Below are positions 8,183 to 49,817 of a stretch of 64,000 nt of DNA, piece by piece. Each line of letters starts with the position of its first letter. The first letter of the stretch is position 1. The DNA comes from Alloscardovia macacae (GTDB taxonomy: Bacteria > Actinomycetota > Actinomycetes > Actinomycetales > Bifidobacteriaceae), in contig NZ_MWWT01000008.1 of the NCBI RefSeq assembly GCF_002259705.1, forward strand, positions 124,001 to 188,000. Reading direction: 5' to 3'. Made by a program: the position numbers and the translations under genes. Under the pieces are notes generated by a model that did not search any database, was not told where the DNA came from, and saw only the letters and a program-made list of their open reading frames with translations.

Positions 8183-9199
8183 TTGAGTACAGGAAAGCAT
8201 AGAGTAAGCTCCGCTTCTGCACCAGTAACGCCATTTAATACGCAGAACGCCTTCGTGAAGGCGTCTCGACTCGCGCGCCAGCACATGACGCTCGTGAAGG
8301 CAGGCACCATAGCAGTGTCCTCGCTTCTCGTCATGGCTCTGGCTCATTCTGCCGCACCTACTTTCGCTACAGCTACCGGAAGCGACGCTGCTACCGGCCT
8401 GAGCGTGTCGCGTAGTTCCAGCCGTGCAGATTTGACCGCAGAAGTGGCCACTATTAATTACGTTCAGGGTGAAGAGTGGGACCTGAGCGCAGACAGTTCT
8501 TCGGTGAACATCACCTATCAGATGACGGACGAGCAGAAGAGCGCTCGTGAGAGCCTCATTCAGACGTATAACGCTGGTCAGACGGCATTCGGTTCGACCG
8601 GTTCTGCGTCGGATGCGTCGCGCGCTGCACTGAGCGCGGCGATGAATAACGCGTCTATACATCTGCAGGATGAGTCCACCGCTGTGGATACGTATAACGC
8701 AGATATCGCGTCGCTGAAGGAGACCATCGCGAAGGTGCAGTCTGAGCAGGCTTCTGCTGTGGCGGCTGCAGCGGCGGCTTCTCGTGCTGCTACAGCGAAC
8801 GCTGGTTCGTCCTCGTCCTCGTCCTCGTCTTCTGTGGACGTGGGGACTGCGACGGGTACTGCTGCAGATTTGATCAATTATGCCATGTCCTTCGTGGGTA
8901 CCCCATACCTGTGGGGCGGCACGACGACGGCTGGCTGGGACTGCTCTGGCTTCACGAGCTATGTCTTCAGGAAGTTCGGCATTAACCTGCCACGTACCTC
9001 GGGCGCACAGGCTACCGTGGGTACTCCTGTAGCATCGCTGGCCGAAGCTCAGCCGGGAGACATCATAGCGAATGGCACTCACGCAGCCATCTACATCGGA
9101 AACGGTAAGGTAGTGAATGCACTGAACTCGAACCTCGGCACGAAGGTGACGAACATGTCCGTGTTCACGGGTGGGTACTCCATCCGCCGCGTGCTGTAA
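8183..9199 (+). CDS. Secreted or anchored NlpC/P60 cell-wall endopeptidase
   Basis: 338 residues. Likely a peptidoglycan D,L-endopeptidase acting outside the membrane. A basic N-terminus and a hydrophobic segment near residues 37-60 ('AGTIAVSSLLVMALAHSAAP') give export. The middle (about 80-215) is helical and Ala/Gln-rich. A run of nine serines is encoded by a hexanucleotide repeat at 8807-8833 and precedes the C-terminal NlpC/P60 domain, with catalytic Cys in 'GWDCSGFTSYVF' and His in 'NGTHAAIYIGNG'. The TTG at 8183 is chosen because AAGGGGA lies 8 bases upstream; the in-frame ATG at 8105 would add residues overlapping the structured leader. Substrate and timing are not visible. Confidence 0.88.
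   Translation: MSTGKHRVSSASAPVTPFNTQNAFVKASRLARQHMTLVKAGTIAVSSLLVMALAHSAAPTFATATGSDAATGLSVSRSSSRADLTAEVATINYVQGEEWDLSADSSSVNITYQMTDEQKSARESLIQTYNAGQTAFGSTGSASDASRAALSAAMNNASIHLQDESTAVDTYNADIASLKETIAKVQSEQASAVAAAAAASRAATANAGSSSSSSSSSVDVGTATGTAADLINYAMSFVGTPYLWGGTTTAGWDCSGFTSYVFRKFGINLPRTSGAQATVGTPVASLAEAQPGDIIANGTHAAIYIGNGKVVNALNSNLGTKVTNMSVFTGGYSIRRVL
8807..8833 (+). repeat. Hexanucleotide microsatellite TCGTCC in NlpC/P60 linker
   Basis: Four consecutive TCGTCY units followed by TCT encode the poly-serine linker. Copy-number change would alter linker length in frame. Confidence 0.8.
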
Positions 9200-9247
9200 A
9201 AAGTGCGAGGTTAGCGTAGGTAAGCGTGCGCTGAACGATTATCGTAA

Positions 9248-9281
9248 GGGCTGGAAGCAAAACCTGCTTCCAGCCCTTTTT
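9248..9281 (+). terminator. Terminator after NlpC/P60 gene
   Basis: GGGCTGGAAGCA and TGCTTCCAGCCC form a perfect 12-bp stem with a 5-base loop, followed by five T. Confidence 0.9.
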
Positions 9282-9299
9282 CGTATGTGTCAGAGAAGA

Positions 9300-9327
9300 T
9301 TTACTTTTCTCCCCCCCCTGTTACGCT
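9300..9327 (+). promoter_or_regulatory. Possible promoter with a C8 tract in the spacer
   Basis: TTTACT (9300-9305) and TACGCT (9322-9327) are 16 bases apart and the spacer holds eight consecutive C (9311-9318). A slipping homopolymer here could vary expression of the next gene. The hexamer assignment is a guess. Confidence 0.3.
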
Positions 9328-9358
9328 GAAATACTAAGGAAGAGAGATGGAGTAGATT

Positions 9359-10228
9359 ATGATGATACTAACGAAGATTCTTATCTGGGTGAAGACACAT
9401 GTCTTCCTCGCTTCTGCTATAGCTGCATGCACAGCTATAGCAGTGATAGTTCCTGTAGCGTGGGCTGTACACAGTGCTGGATTCTCCCCTTTCCATGCTA
9501 CACAGCAGGTTTCCACACAGAGTGCTCGCGGTCAGAAGTCTTCCGAAGCGAAAGATACGAAGAACGCGAAGAAAAAGTCTGATCAGACAGAAGATTCAGC
9601 TTCAAAGAAGGACACTACTCCAGCTCCTGCTCCTCAGCCGGTGTATACATATCAGGACATGCTGGATAGAGCAAATTATGTCATTCGAGCGCAGCAACAG
9701 CTTCTTGCGGAAAAACCATTTCATGACTACTTCCTTACTGGTATAAATGACATAATTCAAATTCCAGATGTAGCAGAAGTTTCTCAGATAGATCAAGCGG
9801 ACCGTACACTCTATACTGCAGCGCAAGAAGCCTTTCATAGTAGCCAAGATTTAACCGCCACTGATATTAAAAATCATATGGATGCGATAAATAATGCTTG
9901 GGATGCTTATCAGAAGTCGCTGAACCATGCTCTGTATTTCTATCTTGAGCATAAAGTAAAGATGAGCGAGGATGATACAAAAAATATAATTTCAGTAATG
10001 AAGAAACTGGGTGGCTATCCGAAATCGTGCCTTGCACTAGAAAAAGAACCAATTTCTTATGCGAAGGATACCGCCACTATGGAGACTCATGATGCGCGCT
10101 ATACCCTTCTGGATTCGTATAACTCATTCATGCAAAAATATGGTCAGTGTATGGGCTCACTGACTCCAGAACAGCAACAAGCATTATCAGATAACATTCC
10201 TCATCAGCCTTATGCTTCAGAGTGGTAA
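9359..10228 (+). CDS. Orphan membrane-anchored protein, AT-rich
   Basis: 289 residues of unknown function. A short N-terminus and one long hydrophobic segment (about residues 5-38) predict a signal anchor or uncleaved signal. A charged Lys/Ser/Asp linker and a Pro-Ala-Pro stretch (about 50-95) lead to an external domain with 'YTYQDMLDRANYVIRAQQQLLAEKPF' and two cysteines in the last third. The gene is clearly richer in A+T than its neighbours and uses CAA and TTG freely, which most other genes here avoid. This suggests recent acquisition. GGAG lies 7 bases before the ATG. No family assignment is made. Confidence 0.7.
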   Translation: MMILTKILIWVKTHVFLASAIAACTAIAVIVPVAWAVHSAGFSPFHATQQVSTQSARGQKSSEAKDTKNAKKKSDQTEDSASKKDTTPAPAPQPVYTYQDMLDRANYVIRAQQQLLAEKPFHDYFLTGINDIIQIPDVAEVSQIDQADRTLYTAAQEAFHSSQDLTATDIKNHMDAINNAWDAYQKSLNHALYFYLEHKVKMSEDDTKNIISVMKKLGGYPKSCLALEKEPISYAKDTATMETHDARYTLLDSYNSFMQKYGQCMGSLTPEQQQALSDNIPHQPYASEW

Positions 10229-10251
10229 ACCTGGCCATACCATATACGGCC

Positions 10252-10329
10252 AGTTGTTTGTAAATCATCTCATTCTAGGGCTCAAATCAGCTCCCCGAGG
10301 CTCCTTAGTGAGATGATTTACAAACAACT
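10252..10329. repeat. Large palindrome IR1 (21-bp perfect arms)
   Basis: Arms 10252-10272 and 10309-10329 are perfectly complementary over 21 bases and share the core GTAAATCATCTCA with the palindrome at 18696. The 36-base interior is unrelated. It sits between convergent genes. It may act as a bidirectional terminator, but no T-run follows. Confidence 0.85.
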
Positions 10330-10351
10330 CGTCGGCACGTACATCTCTGTT

Positions 10352-11173
10352 CTACTTCACCAGCTCAGCGACCACTCCCAGCGCCACCTGTGCAGCCAGC
10401 CGCGCAGACGTATTCAGATCATTCTCTCGCCCATCAAGAGCTTCGTAGGATTCACCGCAGTCGTTACTCATCGAACGAATAATCACGTGCGGAATATCAT
10501 TCTTATAGCACACATGCGATACTGCAGCGCCTTCCATTTCTTCGGCATCTGCATGGTCTTCATCGATAATCCGAGTCAGCACGGATGGCTCAGTACTGAA
10601 CAAATTACTCGTCGCTACAGTGCCCACTGTATAGCGGTGTGCGGCGAGATTCTGCGTATGATCATCTATGTCTGAAGGAACCTCACGAATCCCCGACGGC
10701 GTATACATAAGTCCCGAAGCCCCTAAAACAGAAGCATTATTCTCCACGAAAGTCATCCCCGCATCGCGAGCCACACGTTCGGCGAGCGCGAGAAGTTCCG
10801 GAGTCGATCCGAACGTCTCACGGTATGGCGGGTCTTCAGCGATAATGCCTGTATCTGTATCCTCATAGACGAGAGTCTCAGCGAGCGCGATGTCGCCAAA
10901 TCCGAGTCGAGCATTCAGATTCCCTGCTATACCCGTAAAGATCAGTGCATCCGCAGGCGCCCCCACCTCATATCGAGCCACTGTCAGCAGAGTCTGTGCA
11001 GCCGCAGCGATATTCGTGGTGCCCATGCCACCGAATGTGCTGAAGATATGCACATCACCGTCCTGATGATGCATGATGTCGAGTCCGCCTTCGTGCAGGA
11101 CATCGCCGGGATATGTCTCCTGAATCAGCGCTATTTCGCGTGGAAGTGCGCTCAGAATTACTACTGTGCTCAT
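10352..11173 (-). CDS. mtnN: 5'-methylthioadenosine/S-adenosylhomocysteine nucleosidase-like protein
   Basis: 273 residues. It is a nucleoside phosphorylase fold enzyme expected to cleave adenine from MTA or SAH. Family marks are 'FTGIAGNLNARLGFGDIALA', the ribose-binding 'EMEGAAVSHVCY' and the catalytic Asp in 'IIRSMSND'. It is longer than the roughly 230 residues of E. coli Pfs, with an insertion around 'GASGLMYTPSGIREVPSDIDDHT'. The second ATG (11173) is preferred; a GATACT box lies just upstream of it, so the mRNA may have little or no leader. An ATG three codons earlier is also possible. It is divergent from the SAHH-like gene, and both deal with adenosyl by-products. Confidence 0.85.
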   Translation of the reverse strand: MSTVVILSALPREIALIQETYPGDVLHEGGLDIMHHQDGDVHIFSTFGGMGTTNIAAAAQTLLTVARYEVGAPADALIFTGIAGNLNARLGFGDIALAETLVYEDTDTGIIAEDPPYRETFGSTPELLALAERVARDAGMTFVENNASVLGASGLMYTPSGIREVPSDIDDHTQNLAAHRYTVGTVATSNLFSTEPSVLTRIIDEDHADAEEMEGAAVSHVCYKNDIPHVIIRSMSNDCGESYEALDGRENDLNTSARLAAQVALGVVAELVK

Positions 11174-11230
11174 ACGAGTCATAGTATCAGGAGCATGTGA
11201 ACGCTTGACTTTCCCACGACGGCATGAGAC

Positions 11231-11303
11231 GATAGCTTGTATAAATGGATTGGGTTTGCTCGATCGGCGCCGGTTAACGACAGTTAATCGGCGCTTCTGT
11301 TTA
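11231..11303 (+). ncRNA. Tandem two-hairpin RNA element, unit A, with mini-ORF
   Basis: A GATAGC box (11231-11236) precedes ATAAATGGAT. Hairpin 1 pairs 11248-11254 with 11259-11265 around a 4-base loop. Hairpin 2 pairs 11267-11278 with 11283-11294 (12 bp, loop GACA) and is followed by TTCTGTTTA, as in a terminator. A mini-ORF (11245-11277, MDWVCSIGAG) runs into hairpin 2. Unit B repeats this layout 96 bases later. Either a small RNA, an attenuator or a riboswitch-like element; the plus strand is favoured by the T-rich tail. Confidence 0.55.
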
Positions 11304-11328
11304 CTTCATCGCACCGTTATGACATACT

Positions 11329-11402
11329 TATAGCAAATAAATGGATCGGGAGTACCCTATCGGCGCCTTCACGACGGAAAACGAGTGAAGGCGCTTCTTT
11401 AT
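11329..11402 (+). ncRNA. Tandem two-hairpin RNA element, unit B, with mini-ORF
   Basis: Second copy of the unit. A TATAGC box (11329-11334) is followed by AAATAAATGGAT. Hairpin 1 pairs 11344-11350 with 11355-11361 (one mismatch, 4-base loop). Hairpin 2 pairs 11363-11372 with 11385-11394 and is followed by TTCTTTAT. A mini-ORF (11341-11388, MDREYPIGAFTTENE) again ends inside hairpin 2 and shares M-D and I-G-A at the same positions as unit A. Loop and stem sequences differ between the units while pairing is mostly kept, which suggests conserved structure. Confidence 0.55.
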
Positions 11403-11470
11403 GCGATGAGTAGTCCATTCTATCGCTCGAGAAATGCTTCGAGTGTACTTCATTATTATACCGTCTAGGC

Positions 11471-11483
11471 TACACTGGCAGTA
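11471..11483 (+). promoter_or_regulatory. -10 box for a leaderless SAHH-like mRNA
   Basis: TACACT (11471-11476) ends 6 bases before the ATG at 11483, and no ribosome binding site is present. This spacing predicts transcription starting at or next to the start codon. Confidence 0.5.
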
Positions 11484-13105
11484 TGCACTCACTGAACTTC
11501 GCCACGCTCGTGCGCGCACTTTCGCAGGCCACGAATCGCAGCCTCGCTGGCAGTCGCGTGTTCTGTCATCCGGATGCTCTTTCCGTTCTTCCTGCCAATT
11601 TTTCCTCTCTTGCAGCCGTCTGGGGCATACGTATCGTCACAGATCCTGACGCTGCCTCTTCCTGCTCTATTCATCTTCATGCGCAGTATGCCGAGGTAGA
11701 GGGAGAAAGAATTGACTATACAGAACGCAGGCAGCTCGGCGAGCTCACCGCAGCCGAGCAGATAGACCGCGCGTATGCGGGCATGCCGGTGACGCGGCAG
11801 ATAGCCGACGAACTGCTCGCCGAGCACACTCTCGAGGGCGAGCGCGTGGCAGTCAGCCTTATCATCGAGCCGAAGACGGCGGTGCTGCTACTCGAGCTGC
11901 AGCGGGCGGGCGCTCAGGTGGGCGTGTATGCCACGGCTGCCGAGGTGCATCAAGCCGTGGCGGACGAGCTCGCGCGGCGCGGTGTGAAGGTGTACGCGAA
12001 CGCAGCGTGGACGCCAGAAGAGGAGCATGCCGGTGGGCTGCGGCTCCTGGACGAGCTGCAGCCCACCGTCATCATCGACGACGGTGCGAGCTTCGCGCGT
12101 CTCGCCAGCCTCGAACGGCCAGAGCTTCTCGCTCAGCTCAAGGGCGTCGCTGAGGAAACGACGTCCGGCGTGCGTGCCTTCGAGGCGATGGAAAAAGCCG
12201 GAGCGCTCACGTATCCGGTCATCGCGTCGAATGATTCGCAGCTGAAAACGGGCTTCGATAACGTACACGGCACGGGCGAGTCCTGCGTCACCACCTTCCT
12301 GAACGTCCTGGGCGACTCGTGGATAGACGACAGCGCGGCGCGAGGCGAGAAAATGGCCGTCATCGGGTACGGCCCCGTGGGACGCGGATTCGCTGTGCGC
12401 ATGCGCTCGCTCGGCGCACACGTGGTCATCGTGGAGCGCAGTGCCACCGCCGCACTCAAAGCACAGTATGATGGTTTCGACGTCCTGCCCCTCGCCGAGG
12501 CTGCACGCGCATGCTCCTGCCTCATCAGCGCTACCGGCGTGGTCCATACGCTGGACCTCGCCACGCTTCAGAGCTTGAACGACGGGACAGTGCTCGGCGT
12601 CATCGGCGGAATAGCGAACGAGATAGCACTCGACGAGCTCACAGCGCTTACGGGACAGCACATCTCTCCTGCTGTGCCGCTCACGCAGCTTCAGCTCGAT
12701 ACCAGCCTCGATGCCGGCAGCGATACTGGCCGCGGTGCCTCGGGAAGCCGTAACGCGCAGCTCATCGCCAGTGGCGACGGGATGAACTACACGGTCAGCG
12801 GTGGAAATCCCATCGAAATCATGGACATGAGCTTCGCCGTGCAGCTGAATGCCGTGCGCATGCTCGTGGAGGAAGCGGACACATCCCAGGGAGCGTCCGG
12901 CAGCCAGCTCCCCCACGCCGTCATCCGCCTCGACGCTGCCACGGACGAGCGCATCGCCCGCTCAGCACTGAAAGCTCGCGGCGCTCAGATAGACGAGCAG
13001 CGCGAGATGGTCACGGACTGGACACGCACCCGCTTTAGCGCACCTACCACCACATCTGCCACGCATACCACACCCGAGGAGGCCTCCCATGGCGAGCATG
13101 CATGA
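11483..13105 (+). CDS. S-adenosylhomocysteine hydrolase-like NAD-binding protein with altered active site
   Basis: 540 residues. It is homologous to adenosylhomocysteinase over about residues 110-480: 'VIIDDG' (Asp131 region of the human enzyme), 'GVAEETTSGV', 'NDSQLKTGFDN' (catalytic Lys, Asp, Asn retained) and the NAD loop 'GYGPVG'. By my alignment three key histidines are lost: human His55 is Ile127 here, His301 in the GHFD motif is replaced in 'IGGIANEIA', and His353 falls on Asn in 'SGGNPIEIM'. The C-terminal Lys-Tyr tail that caps NAD is absent, and about 110 unrelated residues precede the core. Normal SAH hydrolysis is therefore doubtful. It overlaps the next gene's ribosome binding site, so the two are probably coupled. 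Confidence 0.8.
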   Translation: MHSLNFATLVRALSQATNRSLAGSRVFCHPDALSVLPANFSSLAAVWGIRIVTDPDAASSCSIHLHAQYAEVEGERIDYTERRQLGELTAAEQIDRAYAGMPVTRQIADELLAEHTLEGERVAVSLIIEPKTAVLLLELQRAGAQVGVYATAAEVHQAVADELARRGVKVYANAAWTPEEEHAGGLRLLDELQPTVIIDDGASFARLASLERPELLAQLKGVAEETTSGVRAFEAMEKAGALTYPVIASNDSQLKTGFDNVHGTGESCVTTFLNVLGDSWIDDSAARGEKMAVIGYGPVGRGFAVRMRSLGAHVVIVERSATAALKAQYDGFDVLPLAEAARACSCLISATGVVHTLDLATLQSLNDGTVLGVIGGIANEIALDELTALTGQHISPAVPLTQLQLDTSLDAGSDTGRGASGSRNAQLIASGDGMNYTVSGGNPIEIMDMSFAVQLNAVRMLVEEADTSQGASGSQLPHAVIRLDAATDERIARSALKARGAQIDEQREMVTDWTRTRFSAPTTTSATHTTPEEASHGEHA

Positions 13106-14444
13106 TCTGAATCCCGTCGTCGTCTACTCTGCATCCCTCGTCCTTCCGGTGACAGCGCCGGCGCTGCCGCACGGAGCCGTGGCCGTCTATCTGAACCGCG
13201 TGGTGCACGTGGGCACGCGCGAGTGGGTGCTCAAGGCGTTATCCGAGGGGCCGCTGCGCTCGAAGCGCGTGGTGGAGCGCCACTGGGATGGTATTCTCCT
13301 GCCCGGCCTCGTGAATGCGCACACGCATTTGCAGTACACAGGCATGGCGTCCGTGGGCCAGCAGGAGTATGGCAGCTTCCAGGAATGGAGCGACGCTTTC
13401 GACGTCATTTACGATGACGATGCGCTCGACAAGCCGTGGAAAGACTGGGCATATGACGGCGCGCGCCAGCTCGTCGAGTACGGTACCACGGCTGCTGCGG
13501 ACATCACCACGGATCTCGAAGCGGCCGGAGCTCTCTTCTCGCAGCGCATGCATGGCATCACGTATCTCGAGGTGATGGGCTGGGAGAATGATAACTGGAA
13601 TGCGAGCGGCCCGGAGTGGCTGCGCGACCTCGTGGAGCAGGCGTCGCAGGAGGGCGAGGCGGCGGACATCGGCATCAGCCCGCACGCGCCGTATTCGCTT
13701 GAGTCCGCGCCGTTCCTCGATTTGCCGGACATCGCGCGGTCTATGGGCATGCGTCTGCATATTCATTTGGGCGAGACGCCGAGCGAGTCGGGCGACGCGG
13801 AGGACCTCTACTCGCCGGTTTCGCGCTCGTGGCGTTCGCATCATTGGGATAGTTATCCGCAGCTGAAGTCGTCCGGCGTGCATGTGTCTGCTATCCAATT
13901 CGTCGATCAGCTCGGCAGTCTCGGACCGGATATCCACATCGCTCACGGTGTATATGCGGACGCTGAGGACCGGCGTATCTTACGTCAGCGCGGAGTGGGT
14001 GTGGCACTGTGCCCACGCTCGAACCGCATTACCTGCACACAGAAGGATGCTCCTGTGGCAGACTACCTGCGCGAAGGAAATCTCGTCTCCGTGGGCACCG
14101 ACTCCCTGTCCTCCTCCCCGAGCCTGGACGTGCTCGATGATGTATCCATGCTCTACGACCTCGCGCGTGAGCAGGGTTATGAGGGAGCCGACCTCAGCCA
14201 CCGGCTCATCCGCATGATGACGCTCGGCGGTGCAGAAGTGATGGGACTGAACATCGGTCCGAAGCGCATAGGCCAGATAAATGCCGGCGCTCTGGCAGAC
14301 TTCGCTTTCCTCGACATTCCTGTGGACTTGAGCTCAGACGAAGCCTACGAGGATACTCTCGAACGCCTCGTGCGCGAAGGCTCGGGAACGAACCGCGCCA
14401 CGGTCATCTCTGGCCGCGTGGCGCATAATAACGACGCTTTTTAG
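13089..14444 (+). CDS. Amidohydrolase (chlorohydrolase / SAH-MTA deaminase-like)
   Basis: 451 residues. It is a metal-dependent amidohydrolase of the TrzA/AtzB/MtaD group that deaminates or dechlorinates purine-like substrates. Metal ligands are visible: HxH in 'LPGLVNAHTHLQYTG', His in 'LHIHLGETPSE', His in 'HIAHGVYADAED' and Asp in 'VGTDSLSSSPSLD'. The ATG follows GAGGAGG and overlaps the end of the SAHH-like gene by 17 bp, so translation is likely coupled. The neighbourhood (nucleosidase, SAHH-like protein) points to an adenosyl-type substrate. The exact substrate is inference. Confidence 0.85.
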   Translation: MASMHDLNPVVVYSASLVLPVTAPALPHGAVAVYLNRVVHVGTREWVLKALSEGPLRSKRVVERHWDGILLPGLVNAHTHLQYTGMASVGQQEYGSFQEWSDAFDVIYDDDALDKPWKDWAYDGARQLVEYGTTAAADITTDLEAAGALFSQRMHGITYLEVMGWENDNWNASGPEWLRDLVEQASQEGEAADIGISPHAPYSLESAPFLDLPDIARSMGMRLHIHLGETPSESGDAEDLYSPVSRSWRSHHWDSYPQLKSSGVHVSAIQFVDQLGSLGPDIHIAHGVYADAEDRRILRQRGVGVALCPRSNRITCTQKDAPVADYLREGNLVSVGTDSLSSSPSLDVLDDVSMLYDLAREQGYEGADLSHRLIRMMTLGGAEVMGLNIGPKRIGQINAGALADFAFLDIPVDLSSDEAYEDTLERLVREGSGTNRATVISGRVAHNNDAF

Positions 14445-49760: not shown

Positions 49761-49778
49761 CAGACCTTCATACGTATA

Positions 49779-49817
49779 CGAAAAAGCCCCTGAGAAATCT
49801 CAGGGGCTTTTCTTTCG
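49779..49817. terminator. Bidirectional terminator, tuf and exported-protein gene
   Basis: AAAAGCCCCTGAGA pairs with TCTCAGGGGCTTTT with a very short loop, flanked by A and T runs on both sides. Confidence 0.9.

Follow-up and report, generated by a model that had tools for sequence, protein, structure and literature searches.

A candidate small RNA family that converges on DUF3800 genes, with two orphan tandem copies in Alloscardovia macacae

Small structured RNAs tied to genes of the DUF3800 protein family are already known as a kind, with eleven DUF3800-associated classes in all in the Rfam database. Three of these classes, DUF3800-I, -V and -IX, were met by name in the present work. For two of them, DUF3800-V (locus L381) and DUF3800-IX (L232, L234), the RNA again converges on the gene from its 3' side. 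At L232:810-1003, in another Bifidobacteriaceae genome, two DUF3800-IX RNAs stand in tandem, convergent to a DUF3800 gene. Here we describe an RNA family without any Rfam match, in which two tandem units found in a 64,000-nucleotide stretch of the Alloscardovia macacae genome (contig NZ_MWWT01000008.1, positions 124,001 to 188,000; hereafter the window) are, as judged by sequence, orphan copies. The family shares the convergent geometry of DUF3800-V and -IX but differs from them in its two neighbouring hairpins and in the sequence AAAUGGAUYGGG...UCGGCG, not seen in V and IX sequences. It goes with a DUF3800 subfamily other than that of the Rfam classes, also occurs alone, and gave no Rfam match in the sequences scanned. 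No description of it was found in the DUF3800 literature, as far as the accessible portions of those papers go, and an earlier one is possible outside Rfam and the literature searched.

Two other kinds of system invite comparison. In a C. difficile prophage, RCd22, an RNA that contains two abiF motifs, is reported to neutralise the protein AbiF by direct binding, both in cis and in trans (PMC12373285). Common to that system and the present one are a phage-borne protein and a small structured RNA, RCd22 having two copies of its motif. AbiF, however, is an Abi_2 protein with links to the ancestors of Cas13, and the DUF3800 partner of the present RNA is modelled with an RNase H-like fold. Type III toxin-antitoxin systems, ToxIN and its kin, combine a nuclease with an RNA partner, as the present module would if the role proposed below holds, and RNA parts without a toxin would be expected. 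Unlike those systems, the present RNA is usually a single unit, is convergent and forms no repeat array, and its partner is only a presumed toxin.

Two-hairpin units and their relatives

Sequence comparison of its members shows an RNA of about 65 nucleotides. AAAUGG stands at its 5' end, followed by a hairpin of 7 pairs whose loop varies, by UCGGCG, which is conserved, and by a terminator-like hairpin. A sequence-only reading of the window had pointed to two tandem two-hairpin units at this place, and this was borne out by sequence, by folding and by covariance-model matches. The units are spaced 96 bases apart, are about 60 nucleotides long each and share the layout AAATGGAT, a 7-4-7 hairpin, the block ATCGGCGCC, a strong second hairpin and a T-rich tail; AAATG opens each unit and GGCGCC starts the second hairpin of each. 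When folded as RNA, unit 1 reaches -28.9 kcal/mol (z -5.1) and unit 2 -28.4 kcal/mol (z -4.6), with 0 of 200 shuffles as stable as the native fold in both cases. The pairing of the stems is largely kept, as that reading had it, except for one C x U in hairpin 1 of unit 2, and the two mini open reading frames (mini-ORFs) it described can be read, with their stops within the second stem.

The covariance model used throughout, R1, rests on 61 RNAs, with no known Bifidobacteriaceae sequence among them. These comprise 56 of 66 non-Bifidobacteriaceae alignment rows and 5 restored by eye, and 6 of the 61 come from viral contigs whose host is unstated; L105, L108, L116, L123, L127, L151, L162, L167, L170 and L193 were left out for poor alignment. 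Because R1 was built without known Bifidobacteriaceae RNAs and matches both window units over their full length, the two count as more than chance. They are its two best matches in the whole genome of the window species. Structures homologous to both units are present elsewhere with their pairing retained; two of the refuting conditions named in the earlier reading were thereby checked, and the outcome favours a conserved RNA on both counts. At 49778-49814 (+) and 49782-49808 (-) of the window, R1 also scores about 20 bits, covering the terminator stem only; this symmetrical terminator-like hairpin has no hairpin 1 and was rejected as a family member.

A DNA search of 59 genomes (that of the window species and those of relatives) with both units as query returned only the window itself below E 0.049. 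With a strict pattern, exact scans gave no match, and up to 3 mismatches gave matches in 5 of 189 Bifidobacteriaceae genomes; a relaxed pattern matched 22 of the 189, and in 11 of these there are members with an R1 score of at least 31 bits. Across all 189, 11 genomes carry 13 full-length RNAs of at least 31 bits. In addition, at least 114 stretches of genome contigs match the pattern, from which 80 loci were taken, together with 18 stretches of IMG/VR contigs. The record titles include Alpha-, Beta- and Gammaproteobacteria, Nitrospirae, Agromyces, Gardnerella and B. merycicum, and metagenome-assembled genomes of Gemmatimonadetes, Acidobacteriaceae, Opitutales and Chlamydiae; some matches are probably chance coding sequence (L106, L113, L188), and some loci are truncated on their downstream side. 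Of the 108 listed matches, 91 (84 distinct) passed a filter that required both hairpins and a T-run. Nine of the 17 that failed were restored by eye for the count of neighbours, which gave 100 RNAs, not de-duplicated.

Of the 32 genomes behind pattern loci, 27 contain a single R1 match at E <= 0.001. A Xenorhabdus locus compared with E. coli genomes found no counterpart there, and no Rfam model matched the relatives scanned (12 loci and one further stretch). A match in the jumbo phage DT01 is doubtful, at only 20.4 bits. In Acinetobacter phage Alexa, a divergent unit (L324:2498-2568; R1 18.4 bits) with a hairpin and a T-run or terminator is located behind an annotated integrase, with no DUF3800 gene in the fetched stretch. 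Tandem copies are rare, not unique, since among 91 loci searched with R1 one other, L130, has a second copy beside the first. The pair of that locus lies at L130:7149-7286, where a DUF3800 gene is present.

Stem 2 covaries in the R1 alignment, with 8 of its 10 pairs changed on both sides; the search pattern leaves hairpin 1 no room to vary in that alignment. In a set collected from the protein side (see below), 3 of the 7 pairs of hairpin 1 have changes in both partners, and pairing is kept in 100% of cells, in an alignment that was fitted to R1 and includes three fragments among its rows. In a viral set of 47 distinct rows, hairpin 1 shows AU changed to GC in 12 and GC changed to CG in 9, and one of its pairs is C.A in 8 rows and A.A in 2. 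Because hairpin 1 covaries in sets that were not selected by hairpin-1 sequence, the predicted RNA structure on the + strand is well supported. A DNA palindrome or operator is disfavoured, since hairpin 1 retains U.G pairs on one strand, whose persistence points to RNA rather than to a DNA palindrome; the conservation and covariation of hairpin 1 speak against a plain terminator array.

For 110 distinct members, drawn from three alignments after others were dropped as duplicates or for a contig end or an atypical start, the upstream sequence shows a T-rich stretch at -36 to -34, a TATAAT-like box at -12 to -7 and a pyrimidine at -1 (about 82%). A TAnnnT box starting at -16 to -11 was found in 57 of the 110, against 1 to 14 in four other windows of equal width. 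From the TATAAT-like box and the pyrimidine at -1, the RNA may begin at the first A of AAATGG. The -10-like boxes claimed for the window units are present by sequence but weak, a simple consensus scan giving no promoter on the + strand at the units and, of their terminators, that of unit 1 only. A possible -35 box of unit 1, TTGACT at 11205-11210, lies 20 bases from its -10-like box. Of the options left by the sequence-only reading, a tandem small RNA is the one supported as a prediction: the family covaries, its relatives have a promoter-like signal, and the RNA has a terminator-like hairpin of its own.

Convergence on one DUF3800 subfamily

At many of the pattern loci, an opposite-strand ORF ends just behind the RNA, and in most of those read it encodes a DUF3800 protein; PF12686 was matched by 33 of 33 aligned partner proteins. 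For 69 of the 100 listed RNAs, a DUF3800 gene of one subfamily is convergent; counted downstream from the start of the RNA, the 3' end of the tblastn hit is reached after 47-136 bases in 66 cases and after up to 412 in 3. The remaining 31 had no tblastn hit in the available flank. Where the partner is present, it and the predicted RNA are convergent, the 3' end of the RNA abutting or overlapping that of the DUF3800 gene.

Because this first set had been chosen by RNA pattern, loci were also sampled starting from the protein. Among 23 loci so obtained, R1 matched at the 3' end of the gene, on the other strand, in 20 of the 20 strong ones, the weakest match being that of L314 (20.6 bits), and the RNA was found beside 0 of 3 weak homologues. 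This sample covered Bifidobacteriaceae, Proteobacteria, 8 plasmid loci chosen from 45 records and 2 of 2 phages; 6 of the 20 come from genomes known through the pattern, and 14 (L309-L322) had not been reached through it. On viral contigs, the RNA stands at the 3' end of 58 of 70 DUF3800 relatives (weakest match 23.5 bits). Many of these contigs are nearly identical to one another, and the pattern set had already contained 4 of the 58. Identity does not exceed 31% for the 12 relatives without the RNA and is 33% or more for those with it. Within the 189 Bifidobacteriaceae genomes, all of the full-length subfamily genes found (5 of 5) have the RNA, 6 further genomes hold the RNA and no full-length gene, and of the 13 RNAs, 5 are beside a full-length gene, 2 beside a remnant (G002 C1, G175) and 6 beside neither.

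RNA and protein also appear to be inherited together. Over 84 RNA-protein pairs, the Mantel correlation with protein distances was 0.53 when the entire RNA was compared and 0.25 when the comparison was confined to the first 27 nucleotides, loop omitted, with 0 of 999 permutations as high for either. The subfamily is mobile, being present in 45 plasmid records and in phages JBD68 and Pkon1. In the Pseudomonas phage JBD68, gp43 (L313:3995-4705), a hypothetical protein, is a DUF3800 subfamily member with the RNA adjoining. Two compensated pairs are seen in hairpin 1 of the JBD68 RNA.

The AlphaFold model of a subfamily DUF3800 protein (mean predicted local distance difference test score, pLDDT, 90; predicted template modelling score, pTM, 0.87) has RNase HII as its best structural match (Foldseek E 8.6e-4). 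VIA-align placed it on RNase HII 1eke with Z 11.4 over 168 residues, at a root-mean-square deviation of 3.3 A, followed by Argonaute PIWI domains (Z about 8.7 for human Argonaute-2); identity to the RNase HII and Argonaute structures is about 10-12%. The protein contains a DESG motif, which resembles the DEAG motif of RNase HII. No PDB chain matched the DUF3800 profile by sequence. On this model the partner has an RNase H-like, nuclease-like fold, in agreement with two papers that report an RNase H fold in DUF3800 (PMC10910872; PMC12669027).

RNAs without the partner, the window pair included

The window pair belongs to the family by sequence and structure only and is an orphan by prediction. 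No subfamily DUF3800 gene was detected by tblastn in the window (E 1e-4; positions 9000-14000 at E 0.1), and none was found in the genome of the window species at E 1e-10. The single DUF3800 found in that genome with PF12686 (L237, 25.1 bits) is outside the window and was missed by the subfamily profile. Near that gene, at L237:539-575 (-), or about G000:C19:101459-101495, and likewise outside the window, is an abiF RNA (RF03085, 46.6 bits).

The six Bifidobacteriaceae copies without gene or remnant are those of G166, G168, G024 and G146 and the two of the window. Other orphans are directly beside a convergent integrase-like gene (L099 and L102; L100, L109, L112 and L115); these represent two groups of related phage contigs, the integrase match of L099 being above the Pfam cut-off and that of L100 below it. 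In L104, an RNA without partner lies 379 bases from an integrase. At L145 such an RNA stands beside the Septu genes PtuA/PtuB, and at L148 beside a cyclase of the type found in the cyclic-oligonucleotide-based antiphage signalling system (CBASS). The association is thus asymmetric: within the subfamily, no protein was met here that lacked the RNA, and the RNA was seen alone or with gene remnants.

Table 1. Features of the window at and around the two RNA units (positions of the window)
Feature	Position	Strand	Evidence and remarks
RNA unit 1	11243..11301	+	Full-length R1 match, 36.5 bits, E 2.1e-10 in window
Hairpin 1 of unit 1	11248..11265	+	7 pairs, loop TTTG; covaries in relatives
Terminator-like hairpin, unit 1	11266..11295	+	T-rich tail; folding and terminator scan
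Mini-ORF, unit 1	11245..11277	+	10 codons, probably chance; not conserved in relatives
-10-like box, unit 1	11231..11236	+	GATAGC, -12 from first A of AAATGG
RNA unit 2	11339..11404	+	Full-length R1 match, 35.8 bits, E 3.4e-10 in window
Hairpin 1 of unit 2	11344..11361	+	One C x U mismatch, loop AGTA
Terminator-like hairpin, unit 2	11362..11395	+	T-rich tail; folding; absent from terminator scan list
Mini-ORF, unit 2	11341..11388	+	15 codons, probably chance; not conserved in relatives
-10-like box, unit 2	11329..11334	+	TATAGC; sequence only
Nucleosidase-like protein, MTA/SAH kind (PF01048)	10352..11182	-	Functional link to RNA not found
Adenosylhomocysteinase-like protein	11483..13105	+	Functional link to RNA not found

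A proposed role and its rivals

We lean towards reading the RNA as the partner of a DUF3800 nuclease, in the manner of a type III antitoxin, with the window pair as an orphan. The RNA would be transcribed from its own sigma-70 promoter, starting at or near AAAUGG, and the DUF3800 protein would be a nuclease, as its RNase HII/PIWI-like model suggests. The RNA would bind and restrain this protein, as RNA antitoxins do in type III toxin-antitoxin or abortive-infection systems, and the two would travel together on phages, plasmids and islands. The window pair may have been left behind or acquired alone, and would then be either an orphan antitoxin able to neutralise an incoming DUF3800 module or a relic. 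A toxin-antitoxin relation is favoured because a toxin needs its antitoxin and not the reverse, which matches the asymmetry between protein and RNA.

Several observations weigh against this reading. Known type III antitoxins are usually upstream of the toxin and on the same strand, an arrangement unlike the convergent one of the present RNA. The pairing with one subfamily has an exception, as the RNA of L190, first counted as an orphan, converges on a DUF3800 of another kind. The members found by pattern (at least 114 stretches) are biased towards the pattern, and four protein members matched no PADLOC or PHROGs model. In the window, the C x U of unit 2 is the sole broken hairpin-1 pair in 76 aligned rows, and this broken pair and the weak promoter boxes fit decay. 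Orphans beside integrases, Septu genes and a CBASS cyclase would also be expected if the RNA marked an attachment site or hotspot, and the obligate pairing would be accounted for just as well by a guide or scaffold.

As a guide or scaffold, the RNA would direct the RNase HII/PIWI-like DUF3800 nuclease to nucleic-acid targets instead of inhibiting it, which we consider unlikely, if a serious competitor. The PIWI-like fold and the near-obligate pairing of RNA and protein match such a role, and DUF3800 adjoins Cas12a2, where a function in interference or CRISPR RNA handling has been suggested (PMC10910872). The RNA shows, however, no free variable guide stretch, since the unpaired AAAUG, the 4-base loop, UCGGCG and the linker are all short, and RNAs without the protein would be useless. 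On present analysis, a type III-like antitoxin appears more likely than a guide RNA because of the asymmetry and the precedent of AbiF and RCd22.

A related proposal, which we hold to be doubtful, concerns the orphans themselves: the window pair and the copies on phages could be decoys that disarm the DUF3800 nucleases of rival phages and plasmids, the RNA alone being selected.

That the RNA acts in cis only, as a convergent antisense transcript and terminator that limits the DUF3800 messenger RNA in a type I-like way, its sequence being otherwise unimportant, would suit the convergent, abutting or overlapping ends. It is improbable nonetheless, because hairpin 1 lies beyond the stop codon and is conserved across phyla with compensatory changes, and because the orphans have no adjacent DUF3800 messenger RNA with which to pair. 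More improbable still is that integrating elements use the RNA gene as an attachment site or as the boundary of a hotspot, with DUF3800 as mere frequent cargo. The orphans beside integrase-like genes listed above, those of phage Alexa and L104 among them, speak for it, as do those beside Septu genes and the CBASS-type cyclase; against it stand the fixed spacing, the pairing with one subfamily in 20 of 20 strong loci and 58 of 70 viral relatives, and the co-inheritance.

The genes on either side of the units, of the 5'-methylthioadenosine/S-adenosylhomocysteine (MTA/SAH) nucleosidase and adenosylhomocysteinase (SAHH) kinds, had led the sequence-only reading to link the RNA to by-products of S-adenosylmethionine (SAM), as a riboswitch or an attenuator. 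The two genes are side by side in 4 of 4 congeners (tblastn), and the RNA is between them in none of the four. R1 had no match at E <= 0.1 in congeners G001, G003 and G004, and found two copies in G002, both at other genome positions. Among the five Alloscardovia species searched, the RNA pair at this site is peculiar to the window species. Rfam 15 gave no match in the window at the gathering threshold, known SAM/SAH riboswitches included, and up to E 5 a chance microRNA match only. The mini-ORF, on which a leader-peptide attenuator would depend, is not conserved: at its site 16 of 117 distinct relatives have no start codon, and 77 of the 101 with ATG, GTG or TTG have no stop inside the 67-nucleotide RNA. 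Elsewhere the RNA adjoins DUF3800 genes, and it points towards the end of that gene and is therefore not its leader. In spite of its placement between the two genes and its terminator-like hairpins, a riboswitch for SAM by-products or a peptide attenuator of the SAHH-like gene is hardly credible and was rejected on this synteny, the wider distribution and the mini-ORF.

The present set is a clean two-part module in which, with one protein subfamily and one RNA, toxicity, binding and neutralisation are directly testable. The lone RNAs, found also on phages, raise the possibility of an RNA-only counter-defence. If they are indeed decoys, they would be an RNA-only counter-measure, or a means of anti-addiction, against a defence or addiction system not yet described.
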